Shown here: piece after piece, positions 1,508 to 60,199 of the stretch
How positions within the stretch are numbered: the first letter of the stretch is position 1
How the letters are laid out: each line of letters opens with the position of its first letter
Source of the DNA: a virus
Strand: one strand, 5' to 3'
Length of the DNA stretch: 64,000 nucleotides
IMG/VR virus record: IMGVR_UViG_3300028862_000012
Coordinates: 62,001 to 126,000 of that record
The notes under the pieces: generated by a model
What the model was told of the DNA's origin: nothing
The model's input: only the letters and a program-made list of their open reading frames with translations
Databases searched by the model: none
Position numbers and translations under genes: made by a program

Positions 1508-3229
1508 GTTAAATCGTCTACTTCTATCAACACGTAAGAAAGGAGTATTATCAAAACGCTTTCCAATATCCAGACTATCTAAGTTAATTCCCGGTGCGCG
1601 AATTAAAAATTGTAATGAAACATGCTGGTCTAAATCCTGCATTTCTATATAAGGAAAAGTAGCATTTAATAAAAGTTTATTAGTGGCATAAACATCTGTA
1701 TAAATATTTACTTCTTTTAATTTAACATTATCATCTATTTGATAGTCTATCCAAATATGTGTAGGAGTTGAAGAATATATATAGTCATTACGAGAGCTAA
1801 AAGAAGAGTTACAATTAGTTATAGTATAAATCGTTTCAAAATATAAAACTCCTGTACTATAGACTATAGTACTATTTGTTAAATAAGGAGATATAATATG
1901 TCCATTACTATCATCCGATGCAGTATAGGTAGTTCCATCTATATCAAAACTTAATTTTAACGTTCCTTCTTTAATAACAGTATAACCTGTTTCATAGGTT
2001 AAATGATCAGTTATTTCTCCAATAACAGGATTTTTAGAGGTATAATTAAATAAATTTAGAGTAAAATTTCCAGTAGTATATTCAATTGTTCCACTTAAAA
2101 ATAAGTTATCTTTATTATATAAGCTCCCTGTTCCATCATCAATAAAAGTAACTTTACTACCATCTGAAAAAGATAAAGTTCCGCTTACTTTTGACTCTAC
2201 AATATTTTTAGTATTTAACGTAGAGCTATATGTTGTTATTATTCCAATATTTTTAAATATCTTACTCCCAATACGAGATTTAAATAGTCCCAAAATCATT
2301 ATAAACTCTTCATAATATAAAATTTCTTCAATAGTTACTGCATACAAACCTAACTCTGTTTCTGTACCATCTTCATATTCAACTATTCCTGTTATCATCA
2401 AGTCTTCAAATATATTATCATAAAAATCATACGTTGCTATATTCATGCTTAAATCAGGAATAAAATTAGTTGTCCCATTTCTAAAATCTATAGGAAAAGT
2501 TAAATTACAACCATAATGAGGAATATCAGTAACCTTCTTACAATAATTTCCATTATTTTTTAAATAGTCTAAATACTTTTTTTGAAATAAATATTTAACT
2601 CCTCTTACCTCTTCATAATTAATTAAGTTATATTCTAGTGCTAAATGCTTTGTAAGTTTCTCTATACTTTTATCAAGATAGTAAACTTCATCTCCGTCTA
2701 CGCCGTATAAATCAGAATCCAGAGTTGGAGTTTTTTGTAATAGATTTACTGATGTAGTTTTATCAGGTATAAACCAATAAAAAGGAGTAGTAAAATCATA
2801 GTAGTTATCTATTTTTCTACAAATAGCATCTTTATCTAAAAGTCTTAATAATTTAGAACTAGCACTACTAAAATACATCAAATAAACATATCCAGTCATT
2901 TCCAATGATTTAAATATAAAATCGAATGAAGAATAAACAGTTTTATTTATTATTAACCAAGGAATAGCTCTAAAAACTTTTTTAACAAAATCTAAATCAT
3001 TACTAATACTTAAATCTATTGTATATCCTAACATGTCTTGAGCCAAAGCACATATTTCTTCAGATGTTAAAGTATCTATATTAAACATATCTTGCTTTAA
3101 AAATTTTTCTTCATGCTCTACCCATATTTCAGAACTTATAGCTTCAATAAATTGAGTCCAAAAACTATTTTTAATACTTGGATGTAATCGTTTAGTAAGA
3201 TTATTAGTAAGTAATTCTTCTGTCATCAT
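1505..3229 (-). CDS. Baseplate/tail structural protein next to the J-like wedge protein
   Basis: A 574-residue protein directly downstream of the baseplate J-like gene (4-base gap). The N-terminal 120 residues (LTKRLHPSIKNSFWTQFIEA and following helices) resemble the helical start of tail-protein-I/baseplate-wedge proteins that sit beside J in many phages. The rest is beta-rich with repeated short GxLxFSDGS and GTLKLSFDIDG strands, as in domains carrying fibres. Two adjacent ATGs exist (3229 and 3226) behind a CAGGAG ribosome-binding site; the first is used here. The assignment rests mainly on gene order. Confidence 0.45.
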   Translation of the reverse strand: MMTEELLTNNLTKRLHPSIKNSFWTQFIEAISSEIWVEHEEKFLKQDMFNIDTLTSEEICALAQDMLGYTIDLSISNDLDFVKKVFRAIPWLIINKTVYSSFDFIFKSLEMTGYVYLMYFSSASSKLLRLLDKDAICRKIDNYYDFTTPFYWFIPDKTTSVNLLQKTPTLDSDLYGVDGDEVYYLDKSIEKLTKHLALEYNLINYEEVRGVKYLFQKKYLDYLKNNGNYCKKVTDIPHYGCNLTFPIDFRNGTTNFIPDLSMNIATYDFYDNIFEDLMITGIVEYEDGTETELGLYAVTIEEILYYEEFIMILGLFKSRIGSKIFKNIGIITTYSSTLNTKNIVESKVSGTLSFSDGSKVTFIDDGTGSLYNKDNLFLSGTIEYTTGNFTLNLFNYTSKNPVIGEITDHLTYETGYTVIKEGTLKLSFDIDGTTYTASDDSNGHIISPYLTNSTIVYSTGVLYFETIYTITNCNSSFSSRNDYIYSSTPTHIWIDYQIDDNVKLKEVNIYTDVYATNKLLLNATFPYIEMQDLDQHVSLQFLIRAPGINLDSLDIGKRFDNTPFLRVDRSRRFN

Positions 3230-3233
3230 TTAT

Positions 3234-4982
3234 TTAAACTCCTGTATAATACAAACAATTTACATCACTATCAAAATAATTTATTATTTGTGCCCTACTT
3301 GTAAGTATTATATTTTCAGTATCAGCCACATTAAACTCAAAATAAAGACTATACTCACCATAGGGCTTATTTAAACCTGAATTAACTTTAAATTGTCCTG
3401 TTCCTGCTGCTAAATCAACAGCACTACCAGTAGTATCATAGCCATTTAAGCCAGTTATACTTCCATTAGAATTTACTTTTGCAATTTGTTTATATGAAGC
3501 ATCATCTTTATGCTTTATTAAAACTTTACAGACTGAATAATTAATTGGAACCATTGTTACAGTAAAGCTTCCAATATAAGTACTATCAAAAACAAAAGAC
3601 TGTAGTATAAGCACTTGTATATCTGCATATCTAACTCCACTCAAATTATCTATTAATGAATAAACATCAGAGCCATACAGATTTTGTTTAAATTCAAAAT
3701 TATCAATAATATAAGTTTCCTTCAATGTTTCTATAATTAAAGAATTCATATAATTAAGTGTCTTGCTTTTATCACTTATATAAGCAGTTACATAAAACTT
3801 TAAATTTATTAATTTCAAGTCCATATAAGATAAAATATCTGTAGGAGGTTTTTTTTGATAAATATCTTCTACTAACTGTGTTTTTTGAGAGGTAGTTAAA
3901 TCAGTTCCAGAATCATTAGCGGCAGTTATATAAACACAATTTTCTTCACCTGAAATGAATGTCCAAGGATCACGATTATTATCTATGTTTGTTTCATAGC
4001 TTCCCCAAACATTTGCTTTTTTTATATAGCTAAAACTATTTATAATTGTTTTATAGTCCTCAGAAGTTCCAGCGCGTTTACCTGCTTGATAAAATTTTGG
4101 AGATAAATCTCTTAGTTTATCTATATCAATTTCATCAGTTCCCCCTGAAATTTCAGAAGTATTTGTTACATATAGATCTACTAATTCACTACTTACATTA
4201 TAAATATTACTATCTATAGTATCTATTAAATTTGTAGAATATAAATTACCATTTAAACCAAGTGTTTCTACATACTGAATATAAACAATATCACCTGCTA
4301 TTAATTGTTTTCCAAATATTCCATCGCCAAATTTTATTTTTATACCTGTCATGTCAGGTAAAGAATCTATATAAAAACAATAAGCATCACTACTTGCATC
4401 ATAAATTGAGTCAACTGGTTTGGCTTGTATATTATTTACATAAATAAACAGAACAGTATTTTCTATACTATTATTGTTTAAAGGAATAGTTTCAAATTTC
4501 GATCCAGAAGCAGTGTAAGTATAAGATTTATAAATTCCTTGCATAACACTTACATCACAAAATAAAGCAGAAGTTGTATATAAAGTATCTTCTATACATA
4601 TATATTTTGTATCTTTATAACTAAAAGTTGTAAATAAGGGAATTGGAATATTTTTAGTAGGATACTCATAAGGAGTAGCTATATTAAAATCTTTAGAAAT
4701 GGAAACTCTACAAGTTCCTTTAGCTCCTATTTTTCTAGGAATTGCATAGTTATGAAAATAACTTTGAGTTACCAAGCTACTCATGTTTCGTGCTAACTTC
4801 CATTTATTTTCACGAGTTAAATACTCATCATATAACATTTCATATGCAAGCTCTGTAGCAATATCTTCCAATAATAAAACATTAGTTCCATATGAAGTCA
4901 TGTCCATATGATCTGCTTTTGTTTTTAGTGTATTATATAATCTATTAAAAATAGCGGTATAGTTAAAACTTGCTGTGCTCAT
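3234..4982 (-). CDS. Baseplate J-like / T4 gp6-type wedge protein
   Basis: A 582-residue baseplate wedge protein. The family signature is clear around residues 280-320: GGTDEIDIDKLR, then RAGTSEDYKTII, matching the GGxDxE...RAVTxxDY pattern of Baseplate_J/gp6 proteins. The N-terminal region (about 20-90) is helical and contains the MTSYGTNVLLLEDIATELAY segment typical of the family start. In T4-type baseplates gp6 dimers form the inner wedge ring that triggers sheath contraction. It lies 9 bases after the gp25-like gene and 4 bases before the next tail gene, so all three are probably one transcript. Confidence 0.8.
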   Translation of the reverse strand: MSTASFNYTAIFNRLYNTLKTKADHMDMTSYGTNVLLLEDIATELAYEMLYDEYLTRENKWKLARNMSSLVTQSYFHNYAIPRKIGAKGTCRVSISKDFNIATPYEYPTKNIPIPLFTTFSYKDTKYICIEDTLYTTSALFCDVSVMQGIYKSYTYTASGSKFETIPLNNNSIENTVLFIYVNNIQAKPVDSIYDASSDAYCFYIDSLPDMTGIKIKFGDGIFGKQLIAGDIVYIQYVETLGLNGNLYSTNLIDTIDSNIYNVSSELVDLYVTNTSEISGGTDEIDIDKLRDLSPKFYQAGKRAGTSEDYKTIINSFSYIKKANVWGSYETNIDNNRDPWTFISGEENCVYITAANDSGTDLTTSQKTQLVEDIYQKKPPTDILSYMDLKLINLKFYVTAYISDKSKTLNYMNSLIIETLKETYIIDNFEFKQNLYGSDVYSLIDNLSGVRYADIQVLILQSFVFDSTYIGSFTVTMVPINYSVCKVLIKHKDDASYKQIAKVNSNGSITGLNGYDTTGSAVDLAAGTGQFKVNSGLNKPYGEYSLYFEFNVADTENIILTSRAQIINYFDSDVNCLYYTGV

Positions 4983-31978: not shown

Positions 31979-32007
31979 TTGACATAAAGATTAAAAAAAG
32001 GTATCAT
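31979..32007 (+). promoter_or_regulatory. Sigma-70-type promoter, TTGACA-N17-TATCAT
   Basis: It starts 3 bases after the portal stop and lies directly before the homing-type gene (ATG 32013). A start 6-7 bases after the -10 would fall at or inside the ATG, so the mRNA may be leaderless. Confidence 0.7.
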
Positions 32008-32012
32008 ATTTA

Positions 32013-34214
32013 ATGATTAAAAAAGGACAAACATTAAAATTATCTTTAGCTACTTTATCAAGGCATAAAAAGCGATATGAGGTTTTAGGTTATAATATAA
32101 ATAAGATTAAGGAAGATAATCCTAATATCCCACTAAATGATATTTACTTAGATATTCCTGCTGAGTTCATACACTCTTCTGGATCTGATTTACCTTTATA
32201 TATGATTTGTGATTTTTGTAATCAGGAATATGAAACTACTTGGAGAAAATATACTAAACTACCGCAAGGGAAGGATGCATGTAATTCTTGTAAAGAATTA
32301 AAAAGAACAAATACTTGTATAGAAAAATATGGAGTAACTAATGTTTTTCAAGAGTTTTCTGTTAAAGAAAAAAGTAAAATAACTTGTTTAGAAAAATATG
32401 GTGTTGAACATGCTATTCAAAATAAAGAAATAATGAATAAAGCAGAAAATAATAAAAAAGTATCTAATAAGAAAAAATATGGTGTTGAGAGTGTATTTAG
32501 CTTATCTTCAGTACAACAAAAATCAAAAGAAACTAATTTAGAAAGATATGGATGTGAATATTCCTGTCAAAATAAAGATATAATAGCTAAAAGATGTCTT
32601 ACAGTAAAAGAAAAATATTCTGATCCTGTTGAGATTAAGAAGGTTTCAGACAAGTTAAAAAATACTATGATGAAAAGATATGGATATACTTCTGCTTTAA
32701 AAAATCCTGAAATATTAGCTAAGAAAACACAAACTATGTTTGATTTATATGGAGAAATAGGCTCTGAAGCAAGAAAAGAATTAGAAGAAAAACGAAAACA
32801 ATCGAATATAGAAAAATATGGTGTAGAGTATCTGCTTCAAAATAAAGAACTTGGAGAAAAAGCAAAGGTAAATAGAAAAGCTTATCTTATGAAAGAGTAT
32901 GGAGTAACTAATAATCTTATTATACCAGAAGTAAAAGAAAAAATAAAGCAAAAGAATATAGAAAAATATGGTGTAGACAGTCCTTTTAAGCTTCCTACTT
33001 TTCAAGAAAAGATTAGACAAATAAATATATTAAAATATGGCACTCCCTATCCTATGCAAAATTCAGAAGTGCGAAGAAAAGTATTTAAGCATAAAGGAAA
33101 GTCAGTACCTGAGTCTAAGTTTGAAGAGATGTTAAAAAATAGAGGCTTTATTTATAAATATGAACTTAATACAAATGGAAAATGCTTTGATTTTACTATT
33201 TATAATATAGATATGACAATAAATACAATTGTAGAAATTGATGGCGAATATAATCATGGACTAAAAAATGATTCAGATGGTTTTCATGTTCATGGAGAAA
33301 AAGATTGTGAACGATTTCAAAAAGTCCCAGATGGAGTTAAATATATAGTATGTAATTCCCTTAACATAGAAGAAGGTTTTTCACAGTTATGCTCAAACTT
33401 TGATGTCAATTATAGTGCTTGGATAAAAGAAATAATTGATGCATGTAATGTTGATTTTCCATATCCTGAATATTCTATTGAGCGTATGAAAAAAGAATAT
33501 AATAAATTAGCTGTTGCAGATTATAAACATAATTCATATGTAGGTCAGTCTATTATTAAGAATTTTCATAAATCAATTTATATTGCTCATGTATCTAATA
33601 AACCGTCCCCAGTTGAAGCTTGGAAGAATTCAGAGTTATTAAAAAAATGTATTGAAAATAGATTTATTTATGCAAACACACTAAGTTCTCAATCTATAGC
33701 TGATGGATTTAATGTTTGTAAAATAGCACCAAAAGTTTCTGTGTTTAGAGCTATTCTAGCGCGCGAGCTAATATTAAAATATTTAAATCAATATGACACA
33801 ATTTTTGATCCTTTTTCTGGATTTAGCGGTCGTATGTTAGGAACAACTTGTTTAAATAAAAAATATATTGGACAAGATATAAACAATACTTTTGTAAAAG
33901 AAAGTAATGAAATCATTAATTTTTTAAACTTAAATGCAAGTGTTTTAGAAAAAGATATTTTTGAAAGCTATGGAGAATATGACTGTTTATTTACTTGTTC
34001 TCCTTATAATTTAAAAGAAACATGGAATAACAGTAATCAAAAAAATCTAAGTTGCGATGAATGGATTGATATATGTTTATCTCATTTTAAATGTAAGTCA
34101 TATTTATTTGTAGTTGATGAAACTATTAAGTATAAAGATTACATTGTAGAGGAAATAAAAAATACAAGCCATTTTGGAAGAAATATAGAAAAAGTTATTC
34201 TTATAAGAAAATAA
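32013..34214 (+). CDS. Homing-endonuclease-like protein fused to a DNA methyltransferase domain
   Basis: A 733-residue protein inserted between portal and protease genes. Residues 1-98: a domain shared with the 38421 gene, ending in a zinc finger (C66, C69, C90, C93). Residues about 100-355: repeated units built on EKYGV...Q..E..EK (about nine copies), known from phage homing-type nucleases as DNA-binding repeats. About 365-440: a PD-(D/E)XK/Vsr-like nuclease candidate (SKFEEML, CFDFTIY, then IVEIDGEYNHG). About 595-733: a SAM-dependent methyltransferase (FDPFSGFSGRMLG motif I, CSPYN motif IV). It has its own early-type promoter. One polypeptide thus seems to carry cutting and protecting activities. 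Confidence 0.6.
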   Translation: MIKKGQTLKLSLATLSRHKKRYEVLGYNINKIKEDNPNIPLNDIYLDIPAEFIHSSGSDLPLYMICDFCNQEYETTWRKYTKLPQGKDACNSCKELKRTNTCIEKYGVTNVFQEFSVKEKSKITCLEKYGVEHAIQNKEIMNKAENNKKVSNKKKYGVESVFSLSSVQQKSKETNLERYGCEYSCQNKDIIAKRCLTVKEKYSDPVEIKKVSDKLKNTMMKRYGYTSALKNPEILAKKTQTMFDLYGEIGSEARKELEEKRKQSNIEKYGVEYLLQNKELGEKAKVNRKAYLMKEYGVTNNLIIPEVKEKIKQKNIEKYGVDSPFKLPTFQEKIRQINILKYGTPYPMQNSEVRRKVFKHKGKSVPESKFEEMLKNRGFIYKYELNTNGKCFDFTIYNIDMTINTIVEIDGEYNHGLKNDSDGFHVHGEKDCERFQKVPDGVKYIVCNSLNIEEGFSQLCSNFDVNYSAWIKEIIDACNVDFPYPEYSIERMKKEYNKLAVADYKHNSYVGQSIIKNFHKSIYIAHVSNKPSPVEAWKNSELLKKCIENRFIYANTLSSQSIADGFNVCKIAPKVSVFRAILARELILKYLNQYDTIFDPFSGFSGRMLGTTCLNKKYIGQDINNTFVKESNEIINFLNLNASVLEKDIFESYGEYDCLFTCSPYNLKETWNNSNQKNLSCDEWIDICLSHFKCKSYLFVVDETIKYKDYIVEEIKNTSHFGRNIEKVILIRK

Positions 34215-36818: not shown

Positions 36819-38315
36819 ATGGGTTTTGATAATGAGACTCGCAGACCGTTGCGGGAAATGCGCGGTCGTTCACTTAGAGAAAGTAATAAGCGTTTAAATG
36901 ATTCTGCTATTAGGGGTCAGTATGATGATTATACTCGTGAGCTTGATGAGAAGAATCAAAAGTTAGTAGAGTCTTGGTCACAGGAAGATGGTCTTGAACT
37001 TGATGGTGGTCGTTTACAGGCTATGGGTGAAAAGAAAGCTACTGCACTGGTTAATTTACTTGAAGAGACTAAACGTGGTTTTAAGAACTTACGTGAGTAT
37101 CAGACTAGCTCTTTAGGTGGTTTGTTACCGCAGGAAATTGTTAAGGCAGTTCGTTATGGATATCCTAACTCTGTAATGTTCGATCTTTTCGATGTTTGGC
37201 AGATGAGTTCCGTAAAGGATACCTTCTATAAGTTAACGACTAAGTATGGAAGTACTCAGCGTGGAGCTACGGAAGGTCAGATAATCTACGAGAAGTATAA
37301 CAATGGTGATTATCCATCAGAGTACGAGACTGATACTGTTACTGTTAGTACGGGTACTGCTCAGAGCGGTGATCTTACTTACGAAAATATTCGTGAGTAC
37401 CATGTTATGGTGTATCTCAACGGTGCATTGGTTGCTCGTGACGATGGTGCAGGAAAGCTTGTTTCTACTGATGAAAAGTTTACTTCTGGTACGCTTGTTT
37501 ATGCAACTGGTGTTTATAATTTAACGTTTGCTCAGTCTATTACTGCTGGTACTGATGTTGTTACTATTCGTTATGCTTCTAGTTCAGAACCGTTAGCTTA
37601 TAATCGTCAGGGAACTGCAATACTGGATCTTGAAGCATATGATTTCCGTGCAACGTTCTTTAGCCTTAATGCTATGTGGAATCAGATGACTGAAGAGATT
37701 TTGCAGTCTAAGCTCAAGATGAGCGCTCGTGAGAATTTACTCATGGGTATTGCTGATCTTATTAAAAAGTCATTAGACGAAATGGCTATTTTCTACGGAA
37801 AGGCCGCTTCTAAATGGGCTACTCCTGAAGAGTTTGATACCAACTGGTCTAATGCTGGTGCCGATAGTGATTACGCTAACGCGCAGTCTTTAATTGGTGC
37901 TATCGAAAATGCAAAAGCTAAAACGTATGAGGCTCTTGGTCGTGAAGCCCCGAAGACTAATATTCTTTGTGGTTCTCGTGCTTTCGTGTATGTACAGAAG
38001 CACAAGTTATTTACTCCTGATAACTCTATGCCCCGTATTGGTGTGTATAAGTTTGGAAACATTAATGGTCAGGACTTGTACAAGGCTCCTAACGATATTT
38101 GTGATAAGGACATGATGTACATGTTTGGTAAGGGCGATGACTCCATAAACGTGGACTCCCCGGTTTCGATCGGAATGTGGAAGATGGGTATTGAATCTCA
38201 AGAGATTCAGCATTCTAACTTTGTTAGTGAGAAGGGTATTGGTGTAATGGCTGACTTCCAGATCAATAACAAAAAGTTTGCTACCTCGTTGAAGCTCAAG
38301 AACTTAATCGCTTAG
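36819..38315 (+). CDS. Major capsid protein (HK97/T4 gp23-type)
   Basis: A 498-residue protein following scaffold and preceding a strong terminator. An N-terminal charged helical segment contains LREM (11-14) and SLRES (18-22), candidate prohead protease sites. The middle has FYKLTTKYGSTQRGATEGQ and an inserted beta domain (about 170-255: STGTAQSGDLTYENIR, then TSGTLVYATGVYNLTF). The C-terminal half has the long-helix/A-domain look (LMGIADLIKKSLDEMAIFYG, then TNILCGSRAFVYVQKH). Less AT-rich codons than its neighbours indicate very high expression. AAGAGGAAG ribosome-binding site. Confidence 0.75.
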   Translation: MGFDNETRRPLREMRGRSLRESNKRLNDSAIRGQYDDYTRELDEKNQKLVESWSQEDGLELDGGRLQAMGEKKATALVNLLEETKRGFKNLREYQTSSLGGLLPQEIVKAVRYGYPNSVMFDLFDVWQMSSVKDTFYKLTTKYGSTQRGATEGQIIYEKYNNGDYPSEYETDTVTVSTGTAQSGDLTYENIREYHVMVYLNGALVARDDGAGKLVSTDEKFTSGTLVYATGVYNLTFAQSITAGTDVVTIRYASSSEPLAYNRQGTAILDLEAYDFRATFFSLNAMWNQMTEEILQSKLKMSARENLLMGIADLIKKSLDEMAIFYGKAASKWATPEEFDTNWSNAGADSDYANAQSLIGAIENAKAKTYEALGREAPKTNILCGSRAFVYVQKHKLFTPDNSMPRIGVYKFGNINGQDLYKAPNDICDKDMMYMFGKGDDSINVDSPVSIGMWKMGIESQEIQHSNFVSEKGIGVMADFQINNKKFATSLKLKNLIA

Positions 38316-38420: not shown

Positions 38421-40184
38421 ATGATAGATTACAATCAAGTTGTAAATGTTAGTTTACATTCAATTTTAAATAAAAGAGTTTATTATGAAAAACAAGGATT
38501 TAATGTAGACAACTTAAAACTCAAAGTAAATGAATTAACATGCAGAACTTATACAAATAAAGATTATTCTAATGTATCTATTGAAATGCCTTTATGTAAA
38601 GTATTTCCATCAGCAAGTTCACAAATTAAAGTAAAAGTAGTATGTGATTATTGCCACACTGAATATGAAACTATGTATATGATAGTATTATCTCGTTCTG
38701 GTAAAAATTGTTGTAAAAATTGTATTCACGCTAAGTCTGCTGAAAGCTTAAAGAAAGAATTTGGTGTAACAAATGTGTCTCAATTAGACTCTATAAAGTT
38801 AAAGAAAAAAGAATTAAGCTTACAGAAGTTTGGAACAATAACCCCATTACAAAATAAAGAGATTAAAGAAAAAATAGTTAAAACAAACATAGAAAAATAT
38901 GGTGTTAAATATGCATCTATGCTAAAAGAAAAAGTAGATTATACTAAAGAAGCATGGAAAAATAAAACAGAAGAGGAACTATCTGACATAAGGTATAGAC
39001 GAGACAAAACTTGGTTATTAAATAGAGGATTTTTAGAAGAGACTTTAGCTCAGGCTGAAAAAGATAAAGTTTCCTTTACTGAAATTAAAAGAAACTTTAA
39101 TAGAAAAGTTAGTTATTCTACTTTAAGTAATTTTGCTATATCTCAAAACTTTTCTATACTCACTTCATTTGAAGAGTTTAAATCTTTTATTTATGAAAAA
39201 GGTAAGACAATCAGATTTAAGTGTAATACTTGTGATACTGAATTTTTTCAGTATATGAATTATGGATTTGTATCAGATGATAGTAGAATTGAATGTCCTA
39301 AATGTCCTTCTGCTATTGGAAGTCGCGAAGAAAATGAAGTTCTTGATTATATTAAATCTATTTATTTTAATGAAATTATTCATAGCTATAAATTAATTAA
39401 TAGAAAAGAAATAGATATAGTTATTCCAGAATTCAATTTAGGAATAGAATATAATGGATCATATTGGCATAATGATAAGTTTCGCGGAAAATATTATCAT
39501 ATAGAAAAATACAATTCAGCTAAAGAAGAAAAAATAGACCTTATTTTTATTAATGATTTTGAATGGAAGTATAAGCAGGATATAGTTAAATCAATTATAA
39601 AGAATAGATTAAAGATAGTCGATAAACGACTATATGCTCGTAAGGGAATTATTAGCTTAGTTGATTCATCTACTGCTAAAGAATTTTTCTATGTTAATCA
39701 TATTCAGGGTAGTAAAAGTATAAACTCTAAAATGATTTCTATTGGATTATACATAGATTCTGAACTTGTTTCTTTAGTAAGTTTTAATAAAACAAAGTAT
39801 AGAAAAGATTATGAATATGATTTAGTACGTTATGCAAATAAATTAGGCTATCAAGTTATAGGCGGGTTTAGTAAAATACTTTCGTTTTTTGAAAAAGCTT
39901 ATAAACCATCAAGTATAGTAACCTTTTCTGAAATACGGTTGTTTAAGTCCTCTGTTTATGAAAAAGCAGGGTTTACTTTAGACCATATTACCAGACCAAA
40001 TTACTTTTATACAAAAAATAATATATTTGCTGGTTCTCGTCAAAACTTTCAAAAAAGTAAGTTAAAGAAATTATTTGATGATTATACTGACTCTAAAACA
40101 GAAAGTGAAATGATGGCAGAACATAATTACGATAAAATTTGGGATTGCGGAGTACGAGTTTTTGTAAAAAAGTATCAAAAGTAA
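38421..40184 (+). CDS. Homing endonuclease, Vsr-like (EDxHD) type
   Basis: A 587-residue protein in the gap after the capsid gene. Residues 1-112: a domain shared with the 32013 gene, with zinc ligands CDYC and CKNC. About 115-180: EKYGV-type repeats (three, FGV/FGT/YGV). A second zinc finger (CNTC ... CPKC, about 270-295). Then the nuclease: EVLDYI, EIDIVIPEFNLGIEYNGSYW (about 330-350) and the following H, the pattern of Vsr-related homing nucleases of the I-Bth0305I kind. The C-terminal 200 residues (LYARKGIISLVDSSTAKEFF and on) are the domain often following such nucleases. It has its own promoter and terminator-flanked position, typical of a free-standing homing gene. Confidence 0.7.
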   Translation: MIDYNQVVNVSLHSILNKRVYYEKQGFNVDNLKLKVNELTCRTYTNKDYSNVSIEMPLCKVFPSASSQIKVKVVCDYCHTEYETMYMIVLSRSGKNCCKNCIHAKSAESLKKEFGVTNVSQLDSIKLKKKELSLQKFGTITPLQNKEIKEKIVKTNIEKYGVKYASMLKEKVDYTKEAWKNKTEEELSDIRYRRDKTWLLNRGFLEETLAQAEKDKVSFTEIKRNFNRKVSYSTLSNFAISQNFSILTSFEEFKSFIYEKGKTIRFKCNTCDTEFFQYMNYGFVSDDSRIECPKCPSAIGSREENEVLDYIKSIYFNEIIHSYKLINRKEIDIVIPEFNLGIEYNGSYWHNDKFRGKYYHIEKYNSAKEEKIDLIFINDFEWKYKQDIVKSIIKNRLKIVDKRLYARKGIISLVDSSTAKEFFYVNHIQGSKSINSKMISIGLYIDSELVSLVSFNKTKYRKDYEYDLVRYANKLGYQVIGGFSKILSFFEKAYKPSSIVTFSEIRLFKSSVYEKAGFTLDHITRPNYFYTKNNIFAGSRQNFQKSKLKKLFDDYTDSKTESEMMAEHNYDKIWDCGVRVFVKKYQK

Positions 40185-47437: not shown

Positions 47438-47901
47438 ATTATATTCCTGAACAGGTAATATTAGGATTATTAGAAGTACCTAATGAAATTAGTTTGATTA
47501 TTCCTATTACTGGATGTAGTCTGCATTGTAATGGTTGTCATAGTCCTGAAATGCAAAATGAAAAAAATGGTGAAGAGCTTACTGAAGAAAAATTTATATC
47601 CTTATTATTTAATTATAAAAATAAAGCCTCTTGTATATGCTTTTTTAGTGGTGAGTTTAAAATATCTCATTTAATTACTAGAGCAAAGAATGAAGGATTT
47701 AAAACCGCTCTTTATTCAGGATTTACTAATATAAAGGATATTCCTTTTAATATATTACAAAATATAGATTATTTAAAATTAGGTGAATATAATGAATTAA
47801 AGGGTGGTCTTCAAGAAAAGACTACCAATCAAAGAATATACAAAATAGACAATGGCAACTATGAAGATATAACACAATTATTTTGGAGAAATAAATTATG
47901 A
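47434..47901 (+). CDS. nrdG: Anaerobic RNR-activating protein (radical SAM)
   Basis: A 155-residue protein with the radical-SAM cluster CSLHCNGC (28-35, the C-x3-C-x2-C motif) followed by HSPEMQ, the NrdG hallmark. It makes the glycyl radical on NrdD using S-adenosylmethionine and a 4Fe-4S cluster, an oxygen-sensitive reaction. It is translationally coupled to nrdH in front and to nrdD behind (ATGA overlaps). Its length matches T4 NrdG. Confidence 0.85.
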   Translation: MNYIPEQVILGLLEVPNEISLIIPITGCSLHCNGCHSPEMQNEKNGEELTEEKFISLLFNYKNKASCICFFSGEFKISHLITRAKNEGFKTALYSGFTNIKDIPFNILQNIDYLKLGEYNELKGGLQEKTTNQRIYKIDNGNYEDITQLFWRNKL

Positions 47902-50126
47902 TTAAATTATCACAAAAAGACTTAAAAGAAAAGAATGACTATGCAAAGAATTATATGAGTAACGGTAACGCCGCTTCTAAATCTGAAGTAGATCCTAATG
48001 CTAATGTAAGTACAAAAAGTGTTGCAACATTAGATAATGAAATGTTTAAGGATATTAAAGTTCAAGTTAATAGATATGCTTTAGGAGAAAAGATAGCAGA
48101 ATTATTTGGAGAAGAAACAAAAGCAGAGTATTATCGACAATTAGAGTCTCATGAAATTTATAGTCATGATGAATCAGCTACTTATTGTAAACCTTATTGC
48201 GTGGCAATAGATCTTTATCCCTTTATTAATAATGGTAATAAGATGATAGGTGGCTCAAGCAAAGCTCCAACTAATTTACAATCCTTTTGTGGTAGCTATG
48301 TTAATTTAATATTTTTAATTGCTTCACAATTTGCTGGTGCTGTGGCTGATGTTTCTTTTTTGACTTATTTTGATTATTTTGCTAGAAAAGATTTTGGAGA
48401 TGATTATTTAAAAACTCATACTAAGCAGATAGAGCGGTACTTTAAGCAGGTAATATATACCTTAAATGATCCTTCAGTTGGAAGGGGTAATCAAGCTGTA
48501 TTTTATAATACCTCAATTTTTGATGAAAATTATTTTAAAGGATTATTTTCAAATGTAATTTTTCCTGATTTTACTAATCCAAAATGGGAAACAGTAAAAG
48601 AGTTACAAGTATTTTTTATGCATTGGTTTAATAAAGAGCGAAACAGAGCTTTACTTACTTTTCCAGTTATGACTTTTGCGTACCAGACAGAAGCAGGTGA
48701 GTCAAAAGATTTAGAGTTTAAGAACTTTATGGCACAGGAAATGTCGGAAGGTAATAGTTTCTTTATTTATCATTCTGATGATATTGACAGTTTAAGTTCT
48801 TGCTGTTTTGATAAGAGTCAAGAAATCATGTTCAGAATTTCTGAAAATTCTGAAACTATTGAAATGAACTTTCAGGATGCCTATGAAAAGTATACTGATT
48901 CTATTTATATTTATTTTAATAATTATTGGAAAAAGGCTAAAGTAGTAAAAATCGATAGAAATAATAAAAAAATGTTTATGATAACTACTGAAGCTGAAAA
49001 AAAGATTATAGTTACCGAAGATCATTTAAATCCTACAGAGTTTGGAGATGTAGAAACAAAATTTTTGATGTTAAGTGATAAACTAAAAACAGATTCAGGA
49101 TATGAAGAAATTGTTTTAATAAAAGAGATTAATAATTACAAAGAAGATTACGTGTATTGTCTTGAAATGGAGGACAAAGAGAATCCTTACTTTACACTTC
49201 CTAATGGGATAATTACTCATAATTGTCGTTTACGCAATGCTATTGAAAAAGATGTATTTGCTTATACTTTAGGTGGTACTGGAATTTCTACAGGTTCAAA
49301 AAAAGTATTTACTTTAAATATAAATCGTATGGTTCAAGATAATCATAATGTAGTAGAAGAAGTTAAAAAATTACATAAATATCTTTTTGCCTATGATGCT
49401 ATTCTTCGAGAGATGCAAGCTAAAGGAATGTTACCTGTTTATGATGCTGGTTTTATTTCGTTAGACAAACAATATTTAACTATTGGAATTAATGGAGTAG
49501 TAGAAGCGGCTGAATTTTTGGGATATGAAATATCTAATAATAAAGAGTATAAAGATTGGCTTATTGGATTATTAAGTTCTATTAAAGATGCTAATAAACA
49601 AGCATCTGATGAGCTTTCTTTCTATTCTAATTATAAAATAGCAATAAATTCTGAATTTGTGCCAGCAGAAAATTTGGGAGCAAAGAATGCTCAATGGGAT
49701 AAAAAAGCAGGATATGTTGTACCTAGAGATTGCTATAATTCTTACCTTTATATTGTTGAGGATGATGCACTCGATTTCGTTGATAAGTTTTATCTACATG
49801 GAAAAGAAGTAACTCAATTTCTTGATGGTGGCAGTGCCTATCATATGAATATTAAGGAAATTCCTACAAAAGAAACTTGGTTAAAAATTATTGATATTGG
49901 AAATAAGTCTGGTTGTAATTATTGGACTTATAATTGTTTAACTACCTGTTGTGAAAATCCTGAATGTGGTTATATTGATAAAAATACAACACATAAATGT
50001 GCAAAGTGTGGATCAGAGGATATATCTTGGGCAACAAGAGTTATTGGATATTTAAAAAAAATTAAAAGTTTTAGTGAAGCTAGACAGGCAGAAGCAAGTC
50101 TTAGATATTTACATAAATTAAATTGA
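47898..50126 (+). CDS. nrdD: Anaerobic ribonucleoside-triphosphate reductase with intein
   Basis: 742 codons. Removing 140 intein residues (303-442) leaves 602, about the length of T4 NrdD. Extein parts: KSVATLDNEMF and ESHEIYSHDESATYCKPYC near the N-terminus; SSC|C joined across the intein to CRLRNAIEKD and GGTGISTGSKKV; NSEFVPAENLGAKNAQWDKK; C-terminal zinc site (CCENPEC ... CAKC) and glycyl radical segment TRVIGYLKK (Gly near residue 717, 25 from the end). It makes dNTPs under anaerobic conditions. The intein splits the two Cys in the active-site region, so reductase activity needs splicing. Confidence 0.85.
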   Translation: MIKLSQKDLKEKNDYAKNYMSNGNAASKSEVDPNANVSTKSVATLDNEMFKDIKVQVNRYALGEKIAELFGEETKAEYYRQLESHEIYSHDESATYCKPYCVAIDLYPFINNGNKMIGGSSKAPTNLQSFCGSYVNLIFLIASQFAGAVADVSFLTYFDYFARKDFGDDYLKTHTKQIERYFKQVIYTLNDPSVGRGNQAVFYNTSIFDENYFKGLFSNVIFPDFTNPKWETVKELQVFFMHWFNKERNRALLTFPVMTFAYQTEAGESKDLEFKNFMAQEMSEGNSFFIYHSDDIDSLSSCCFDKSQEIMFRISENSETIEMNFQDAYEKYTDSIYIYFNNYWKKAKVVKIDRNNKKMFMITTEAEKKIIVTEDHLNPTEFGDVETKFLMLSDKLKTDSGYEEIVLIKEINNYKEDYVYCLEMEDKENPYFTLPNGIITHNCRLRNAIEKDVFAYTLGGTGISTGSKKVFTLNINRMVQDNHNVVEEVKKLHKYLFAYDAILREMQAKGMLPVYDAGFISLDKQYLTIGINGVVEAAEFLGYEISNNKEYKDWLIGLLSSIKDANKQASDELSFYSNYKIAINSEFVPAENLGAKNAQWDKKAGYVVPRDCYNSYLYIVEDDALDFVDKFYLHGKEVTQFLDGGSAYHMNIKEIPTKETWLKIIDIGNKSGCNYWTYNCLTTCCENPECGYIDKNTTHKCAKCGSEDISWATRVIGYLKKIKSFSEARQAEASLRYLHKLN
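48804..49223 (+). mobile_element. Mini-intein inside nrdD
   Basis: 140 residues from CFDKSQEI to NGIITHN, followed by Cys of the C-extein. It has the N-terminal Cys, a TEDHLNP motif (block B-like Thr/His), a YCLEMEDKENPYFTLPNG segment (block F-like) and the terminal HN before Cys (block G). No LAGLIDADG or HNH domain is present, so it cannot home by itself now. Confidence 0.85.
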
Positions 50127-59191: not shown

Positions 59192-59439
59192 GTACAGATT
59201 TTTGTTGTCCTGATTGTAAATGGTGGCCTCCTGATAGTTATTACTATATTAAAGAAAAGCAAGTTATTGAATGTAGTAACAATATAAAACATAATGTATA
59301 TCCAAAGTATTTAGAAATTTATACTGATTGGAAAAATCGTAGATGTTATCGGAAAGTATTTAAATGTGGAAAATGTTTTAAAGAGTTTGAACAAAGTATA
59401 GTAGAGGAAAACATTATTGTAGAGGAAAAAGATGATTAA
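59188..59439 (+). CDS. Small zinc-finger protein
   Basis: An 83-residue protein that overlaps the helicase stop by ATGA and the next methyltransferase by 8 bases. It has CPDC near residue 8, a Cys near 29 and CGKC near 62, so probably one or two zinc ribbons, and a Glu-rich tail. It is coupled to both neighbours and may assist them on DNA. No family name. Confidence 0.5.
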   Translation: MSTDFCCPDCKWWPPDSYYYIKEKQVIECSNNIKHNVYPKYLEIYTDWKNRRCYRKVFKCGKCFKEFEQSIVEENIIVEEKDD

Positions 59440-60199
59440 AAATAATAGTATACACGAAGGTGATTGTTTAGATATATTGCCATTAATTGAAGATAAATCT
59501 ATAGATATGGTTTTGGCAGATTTGCCTTTTGAGACAACTCAGAACTTTTGGGATGTATTAATTGATTTACCTAAACTTTGGATTCAGTATGAACGAGTAA
59601 TAAAAGATAACGGAGCTATACTTTTATTTGCTCAAACACCTTTTGATAAAATACTTGGATGTAGTAACTTAAAATTATTAAAATATGAATGGATATGGGA
59701 AAAAAGCAAAGCTACTGGATTTTTAAATGCTAAAAAGTTTCCATTAAAAGCCCATGAGAATATTTTAGTGTTCTATAAGCATCCTCATATTTATAACCCT
59801 CAAATGACTAAAGGTACACCTTATAATAAAGGATTAATTAAAGCACAAAATGGGAACGGTAGCTATTCAAACTATAATGAAAAGGTAGGGAAGAATGATA
59901 CAGGAGATAGATTACCTCGCGATGTTATTTATTTTAAGACAGCAGAAACAGAGGGTAAACAGACTCATAGTACTCAAAAGCCTGTAGCTTTATTAGAGTA
60001 TTTTATAAAGACTTATACTAACGAAAACATGCTAGTATTAGATAATTGCGCCGGAAGTTTTAGTACAGGGGTAGCTTGTTGTAATACAAATAGAAATTAT
60101 ATCTTGATTGAAAAAGATCATGATATTTTTTGTAAAGGGAAAGCTCGATTAGAAAAAGTGTTGGAAGATAAGCAAAATAGCTTATTAACTATTTTATAA
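59432..60199 (+). CDS. DNA methyltransferase, beta-class (N4/N6 type)
   Basis: A 255-residue protein with permuted methyltransferase order: catalytic motif IV first (MVLADLPFETTQNFW, near 27-41, DLPF for DPPY), the target region in the middle, then STQKPVALLEYFIKTYT and VLDNCAGSFSTGVACCNTNR (motif I region, near 211-230). The FxGxG is written NCAGS here. It methylates adenine or cytosine N4 at an unknown site. No restriction enzyme gene is next to it, so it is probably protective. Confidence 0.75.
   Translation: MIKNNSIHEGDCLDILPLIEDKSIDMVLADLPFETTQNFWDVLIDLPKLWIQYERVIKDNGAILLFAQTPFDKILGCSNLKLLKYEWIWEKSKATGFLNAKKFPLKAHENILVFYKHPHIYNPQMTKGTPYNKGLIKAQNGNGSYSNYNEKVGKNDTGDRLPRDVIYFKTAETEGKQTHSTQKPVALLEYFIKTYTNENMLVLDNCAGSFSTGVACCNTNRNYILIEKDHDIFCKGKARLEKVLEDKQNSLLTIL

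Follow-up and report, generated by a model that had tools for sequence, protein, structure and literature searches.

The gene described here lies in a 64,000-nt window, the whole stretch of viral DNA that was analysed (positions 62,001-126,000 of IMG/VR record IMGVR_UViG_3300028862_000012), and all coordinates below refer to this window. It occupies 32013..34214 on the plus strand, as do all the domains and motifs mapped within it, and encodes a fusion of a homing-type endonuclease to a methyltransferase domain. An earlier note, made from the letters alone, had placed the whole protein in a single frame of 733 residues. This was borne out: the ORF is uninterrupted, and a letter-for-letter copy of the gene is present in an independent IMG/VR contig (L002). 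An assembly artefact joining two genes is ruled out by the independent contigs and by dozens of homologous fusions.

The N-terminal region (residues 10-200) matches phrog_12131, a homing endonuclease family, with E-value 1.9e-34. The zinc finger proposed for this protein is present as a Cys4 site in the sequence (C66-x2-C69...C90-x2-C93; 32208..32291). The repeats that follow (32322..33047; residues 104-345) presumably form the DNA-binding and specificity module; they match Pfam DUF7487 with E-value 1.4e-40, and their helix pattern is regular across the full-length structure model. About nine EKYGV repeats had been claimed; the repeats are real, while their count is corrected to ten EKYG-type helical units of the form xxYGx (YG-centred starts at residues 104, 127, 154, 177, 221, 244, 267, 294, 317 and 340, with spacings of mostly 23 or 27 residues), and just four of the ten carry an exact EKYGV.

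The next domain (33081..33452; residues 357-480), delimited by alignment, Pfam and the structure model, is a PD-(D/E)XK nuclease of the Vsr/MTES_1575 type with the catalytic motif VEIDGEYNHG (E408, D410 and H415; 33231..33260; alignment A5). The nuclease candidate that the earlier note had seen at IVEIDGEYNHG is thus confirmed as a domain, its active-site residues being invariant in an alignment of 25 sequences (the fusion and 24 relatives), where D393, D410, H415, D420, D431 and R434 do not vary. Pfam detects MTES_1575 in 11 of these nucleases, Vsr in five and DUF559 in three; the window nuclease taken alone matches none of these three Pfam families.

A conserved FPYP linker and a helical subdomain (FHKSI, SPxEAW, NR; 33444..33797), seen in the alignment and in the AlphaFold2 model, precede a class-I amino-methyltransferase Rossmann core (33798..34211) identified by AlphaFold2, Foldseek, Pfam and PADLOC. 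The core carries motif I for SAM binding (D599-PFSGFSG-R607; 33807..33833), nearly invariant across the family, and motif IV (T661-C-S-P-Y665-N; 33993..34010), where the alignment shows Cys in place of the usual S/D/N. Residues 354-733 were modelled with mean pLDDT 89.9 and pTM 0.82 (pLDDT 81.0 for the whole protein), and in the model residues 478-733 make up the helical subdomain and the class-I core. The doubt whether the C-terminal domain would have a SAM pocket was answered by a SAM-type class-I fold, in AlphaFold2 and in Foldseek alike. The best solved structure in Foldseek is Trm11 with sinefungin (E-value 5e-7), METTL5 is also among the best matches, and many amino-methyltransferases are found besides; among viral models, it finds an unnamed 747-aa protein and m4C-type methyltransferases of pithoviruses. 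Trm11 and METTL5 are RNA methyltransferases, and since the best solved-structure match is a tRNA enzyme, the fold does not prove DNA to be the substrate.

The motifs FDPFSGFSG and CSPYN, on which the methyltransferase had been proposed, stand in the expected places: motif I, the acidic D622 closing strand 2 and TCSPY following strand 4 occupy the positions that a SAM-dependent amino-methyltransferase requires. Across a 51-row methyltransferase alignment, no variation is seen at the key residues of motif I, at the Asp of strand 2 or at the PY of motif IV. Nearly all members have TC(P/S)PY as motif IV; L032, which is sister to the window protein on the methyltransferase tree, has a natural variant, the usual m4C form TSPPY. 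The motif order I to IV fits the gamma class, but motif IV reads TCSPY, TCPPY or TSPPY and is not of the NPPY type. Pfam N6_N4_Mtase matches the isolated domain with E-value 6.7e-7 (29.9 bits against a cut-off of 26.7), the full-length protein scoring 24.6 bits, below the cut-off. PADLOC MTase_II matches the domain at 1.4e-7, and the profile of the m4C methyltransferase PDB 8s9n matches with E-value 0.0018. Profiles, motifs and fold agree, which rules out a coincidence of fold only. The structure model shows no separate target-recognition domain. Motifs and model suggest cytosine N4 or adenine N6 as the likeliest group to be modified. The evidence supports a homing-type endonuclease fused to a methyltransferase domain that looks catalytically competent.

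A scan with the methyltransferase profile, with locus E-values relative to the candidate sets, found the domain encoded at 64 viral loci in partly redundant contigs. The relatives number about 50 when counted as distinct, almost all of them on viral contigs, and the search for the same fusion elsewhere thus yielded dozens of homologues in independent contigs. The same scan of genome contigs gave three loci, all from one assembly of an uncultured Treponema; these are three paralogous fusions (L085, L086 and L087), possibly on binned phage contigs. PHROG 12517, a family of unknown function, matches all 52 proteins that were aligned; Type II methyltransferase models match 39 of them, DUF7487 matches 29, and a homing-endonuclease PHROG also matches 29. 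In the open-access literature, we found no published description of homing endonuclease-methyltransferase fusions and no mention of DUF7487.

At least three types of nuclease are found linked to the methyltransferase, and these types cluster on the methyltransferase tree. The window protein and most relatives combine the zinc site, the EKYG repeats, a Vsr-type nuclease and the methyltransferase. A second architecture has EKYG repeats or a helix-turn-helix, another PD-(D/E)XK-like nuclease (FDSSWELA...YPDF...EIKGxQFF) and the methyltransferase; a third (L084) has a helix-turn-helix with a nuclease of the phrog_559/9084 type. In the fourth (L019, L053), nuclease (with ELNxxWTHGG) and methyltransferase are encoded separately, by two genes overlapping by 23 nt. 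In L019, represented by five identical contigs, the nuclease and methyltransferase ORFs are open only if TGA is recoded; this phage appears to read TGA as Trp. A clade with support 100/99 (L007, L068, L069/Lak, L077, L082 and L083) has no recognisable nuclease. In L001 and L069 (Prevotella phage Lak-B and relatives), Cys-rich zinc-like N-terminal domains are fused to the methyltransferase, again with no recognisable nuclease. The distribution is scattered, and several contigs hold two or three paralogues; in one phage genome (IMGVR_UViG_3300010167_000014), two paralogous fusions (L003 and L046) flank a 1300-aa gene and a 188-aa gene.

In L052 and L067, and through a frameshift in L039, the nuclease has decayed and the methyltransferase motifs are intact, so that the methyltransferase can persist alone; L071 is the reverse case, with a frameshift in the methyltransferase (the frameshifts in L039 and L071 may be sequencing errors). 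We do not claim that the methyltransferase always outlives the nuclease: the 64 loci were selected by methyltransferase motifs, and L071 is a counter-example.

Scanning for the nuclease in place of the methyltransferase, with the narrow profile A7, gave 22 loci. The methyltransferase is present in all 15 close nuclease relatives whose frame reaches it; the remaining loci are one close copy cut by the contig end and six weak matches, which are other homing enzymes without a methyltransferase. In measurable pairs, the dN/dS values are 0.17-0.30 for the methyltransferase and 0.05-0.66 for the nuclease, and by this estimate the methyltransferase is under purifying selection. Nine paralogue pairs, each from one record or assembly, show the same gradient of conservation in 9 of 9 cases: the N-terminal region (24-41%) is less conserved than the nuclease (38-64%), and the nuclease less than the methyltransferase (51-72%). 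Such a gradient is as expected if one specificity module serves both activities, and the comparison agrees with a recognition module that changes while the two catalytic domains it serves stay fixed; rapid divergence of the N-terminal region by itself could yield the same gradient.

The gene had been placed between those for portal and protease. The two neighbours are presumed to be these genes by position and gene order; neither has a Pfam or PHROG match. The gene upstream of the fusion has a distant match (25%) to a Microcystis phage gene located between those for the large terminase and the prohead protease, and the gene at 36819-38315 shows weak similarity to annotated major capsid proteins of Rhizobium phages. 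Rhizobium phage RHph_Y65 has an unbroken run of terminase-portal-small gene-protease-capsid; for the portal-protease junction itself, searches with portal, protease and capsid for an insert-free relative gave the identical contig, distant phages or nothing. Elsewhere, the fusion or its two-gene form lies beside the major head gene (L032, L038 and L071, and in the two-gene form L019 and L053), the tail tube gene (L045, L058, L072 and L079), the head protease gene (L050) or the gene for NrdD (L004). The early promoter assigned to the fusion gene is not supported. The promoter-like sequence TTGACA-17-TATCAT (31979..32007, plus strand; 11 of 12 positions match) is probably not the promoter of this gene, since transcription from it would begin at the ATG at 32013, with no room for a ribosome-binding site, and since such sites are no more frequent in the region than in shuffled sequences (35 versus 41 +/- 7).

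The earlier note had also held that free-standing homing genes normally rely on insertion to destroy their target. Free-standing phage homing genes often adjoin their target, and it is mainly the intron-borne ones that destroy theirs by inserting into it; the claim is corrected accordingly, and the correction is matched by intron-borne cousins that lack a methyltransferase. No group I intron around the window fusion was matched by Rfam at E-value ≤0.01 in the region 24000-46000, and in an Rfam scan of 46 loci no fusion or paired element was inside a group I intron. The nuclease type of L019 and L053 also occurs without a methyltransferase in introns interrupting capsid genes (L141, L148, L149, L150 and L154), and L144 is a related free-standing nuclease without one. 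The trend is that copies protected by insertion lack the methyltransferase and copies outside a gene can carry one, L144 being the exception. A strict link is not supported: it was a search of capsid genes that yielded the intron cases without a methyltransferase, and L144 does not follow the rule.

The major capsid genes of L154, L148 and L150 hold several group I introns, some of them encoding homing nucleases; in L154 (1-5500), four intron matches and three nuclease ORFs lie in one capsid gene. In L045 and L058, the tail tube gene adjoining the fusion (2600-3850 and 2960-3830, respectively) has group I introns without ORFs, whereas in the related phages L072 and L079 that gene is uninterrupted; L058 and L072 have nearly the same DNA at the insertion site. 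In L045 and L058, the homing gene with its methyltransferase stands directly downstream of the tail tube gene, which may point to collaborative homing.

On balance, we lean slightly towards reading the window gene as a free-standing phage homing endonuclease that brings its own modification enzyme and would work like a Type IIG restriction-modification enzyme encoded by one gene and made of homing-endonuclease parts. The zinc site and the EKYG repeats would locate a long DNA target, and the Vsr-type nuclease, judging by its conserved active site, would cut that target in unmarked DNA. The methyltransferase, whose fold and motifs are those described above, would methylate an exocyclic amino group of DNA at or near the same target. 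DNA made in an expressing cell would thus be marked and progeny would arrive protected, while an unmarked rival allele would be cut and then either repaired by copying the element or excluded. The element's own DNA would be spared by marking and not by insertion into the target alone. The enzyme could mark both genomes in a co-infected cell, so that protection would depend on prior marking or on kinetics. A one-gene restriction-modification-like homing element is the best reading of the sequences, backed by the recurrence of the fusion, co-inheritance, purifying selection and the overlapping two-gene version. More tentatively, and with somewhat less than an even chance of being right, we propose a widespread family of selfish phage elements in which one protein, or an overlapping gene pair, would cut unmarked co-infecting alleles and mark its own genome, the parts having been assembled repeatedly from homing nucleases and one dedicated methyltransferase module.

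The main rival holds that two functions travel together: an ordinary homing nuclease, and a methyltransferase that marks phage DNA independently, for example against host restriction, to the benefit of the phage and not of homing. We consider this unlikely. It would account for the well-supported nuclease-free clade of the same methyltransferase family and for the methyltransferases retained in L052 and L067 after nuclease decay, and this phage does possess a further, stand-alone DNA methyltransferase (59432-60199; phrog_67, E-value 2e-65; N6_N4_Mtase, 4e-26). Close kinship of the fused domain with that enzyme was rejected (hhalign probability only 4.5%). Against independent benefit, every close nuclease relative whose frame reaches the methyltransferase keeps the fusion, the pairing recurs with different nuclease types, and the recognition module diverges where the methyltransferase does not, a hint that the latter has no independent specificity.

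The Cys in motif IV and the lack of a separate target-recognition domain in the model would also suit a domain that does not methylate and acts as a structural or DNA-binding platform, for example by aiding target binding or by making cleavage switchable by SAM. We regard this as improbable in view of the invariant key positions in motif I, strand 2 and motif IV, the canonical TSPPY in the sister protein L032, the low dN/dS values and the existence of the methyltransferase as a gene of its own in L019 and L053. It is less probable still that the nuclease depends on the modification, with the methyltransferase tagging the target and the Vsr-like domain cutting or nicking tagged, hemi-methylated or mismatched DNA. 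The founding member of the Vsr type, to which Pfam assigns five of the 25 aligned nucleases, acts on mismatches that arise from cytosine methylation; however, the methyltransferase is paired with other nuclease types as well, and one of these has intron-borne homing relatives with no methyltransferase, so that cleavage as such seems not to need the mark. An RNA or other non-DNA substrate, suggested by the Foldseek matches to Trm11 and METTL5, is the least probable alternative, given the fusion to DNA nucleases and DNA-binding repeats and the sequence profiles, which match DNA methyltransferases.

The window protein is, by its sequence, a member of the zinc/EKYG group of free-standing phage homing endonucleases (PHROG 12131 and 3339; DUF7487; F-LimIII of phage LIMEstone1) with an added domain. 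It has the same N-terminal zinc site and EKYG repeats, a PD-(D/E)XK-type nuclease and a place between conserved structural genes; the known enzymes are annotated as nucleases only, whereas the window gene adds a conserved C-terminal methyltransferase. Type IIG/IIC enzymes (MmeI, BcgI; PMC4081073) likewise unite nuclease and methyltransferase in a single chain, where one specificity module plausibly serves both activities, as it may here. The fusion differs in its order (specificity-nuclease-methyltransferase), in having a homing-type repeat array as specificity module, in TC(S/P)PY instead of NPPY as motif IV and in being phage-borne beside structural genes. We do not class it as Type IIG, because its motif IV is not of the NPPY type and the domain order and recognition module differ. 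It resembles the N4-cytosine/N6-adenine DNA methyltransferases (N6_N4_Mtase; PDB 8s9n and 1g60) in the motif X/I region and the fold, with TSPPY in L032, but its motifs run from I to IV and are not circularly permuted as in the Pfam family; it also has Cys in motif IV, a helical N-terminal subdomain and no recognised target-recognition domain. The intron-borne homing endonucleases of capsid genes (L148, L149) share the nuclease family of the L019 and L053 pairs; they are encoded within a group I intron that interrupts the gene, and they lack a methyltransferase. Interference by the homing endonuclease of PhiPA3 (PMC11620839) also concerns a homing enzyme in competition between co-infecting phages; that enzyme is intron-encoded, and no word starting with 'methyl' occurs in the main text of that paper.

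The comparison of homing endonucleases with restriction-modification systems is an old one: both are selfish nucleases, the former sparing their own DNA by interruption or change of the target and the latter by methylation. A family joining homing recognition to a methyltransferase would, if the proposal is true, link the two directly; marking would account for the coexistence of free-standing homing genes and intact targets, and phages would gain an exclusion system against competitors. That dozens of unrelated phages carry versions of the fusion suggests that some selfish homing genes may protect their own DNA by marking it. The proposal also suggests a role for PHROG 12517, a methyltransferase family that is unannotated, and makes modular repeat-nuclease-methyltransferase proteins available to biochemistry.

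A natural internal comparison is provided by a second homing endonuclease in the window (38421..40184, plus strand), located 3′ of the capsid gene, which has a zinc site, EKYG repeats and a GIEYNGSYWH nuclease and no methyltransferase. Further downstream, the gene at 47898-50126 encodes an NrdD-like anaerobic ribonucleotide reductase in which residues 399-442 are an intein splicing domain.
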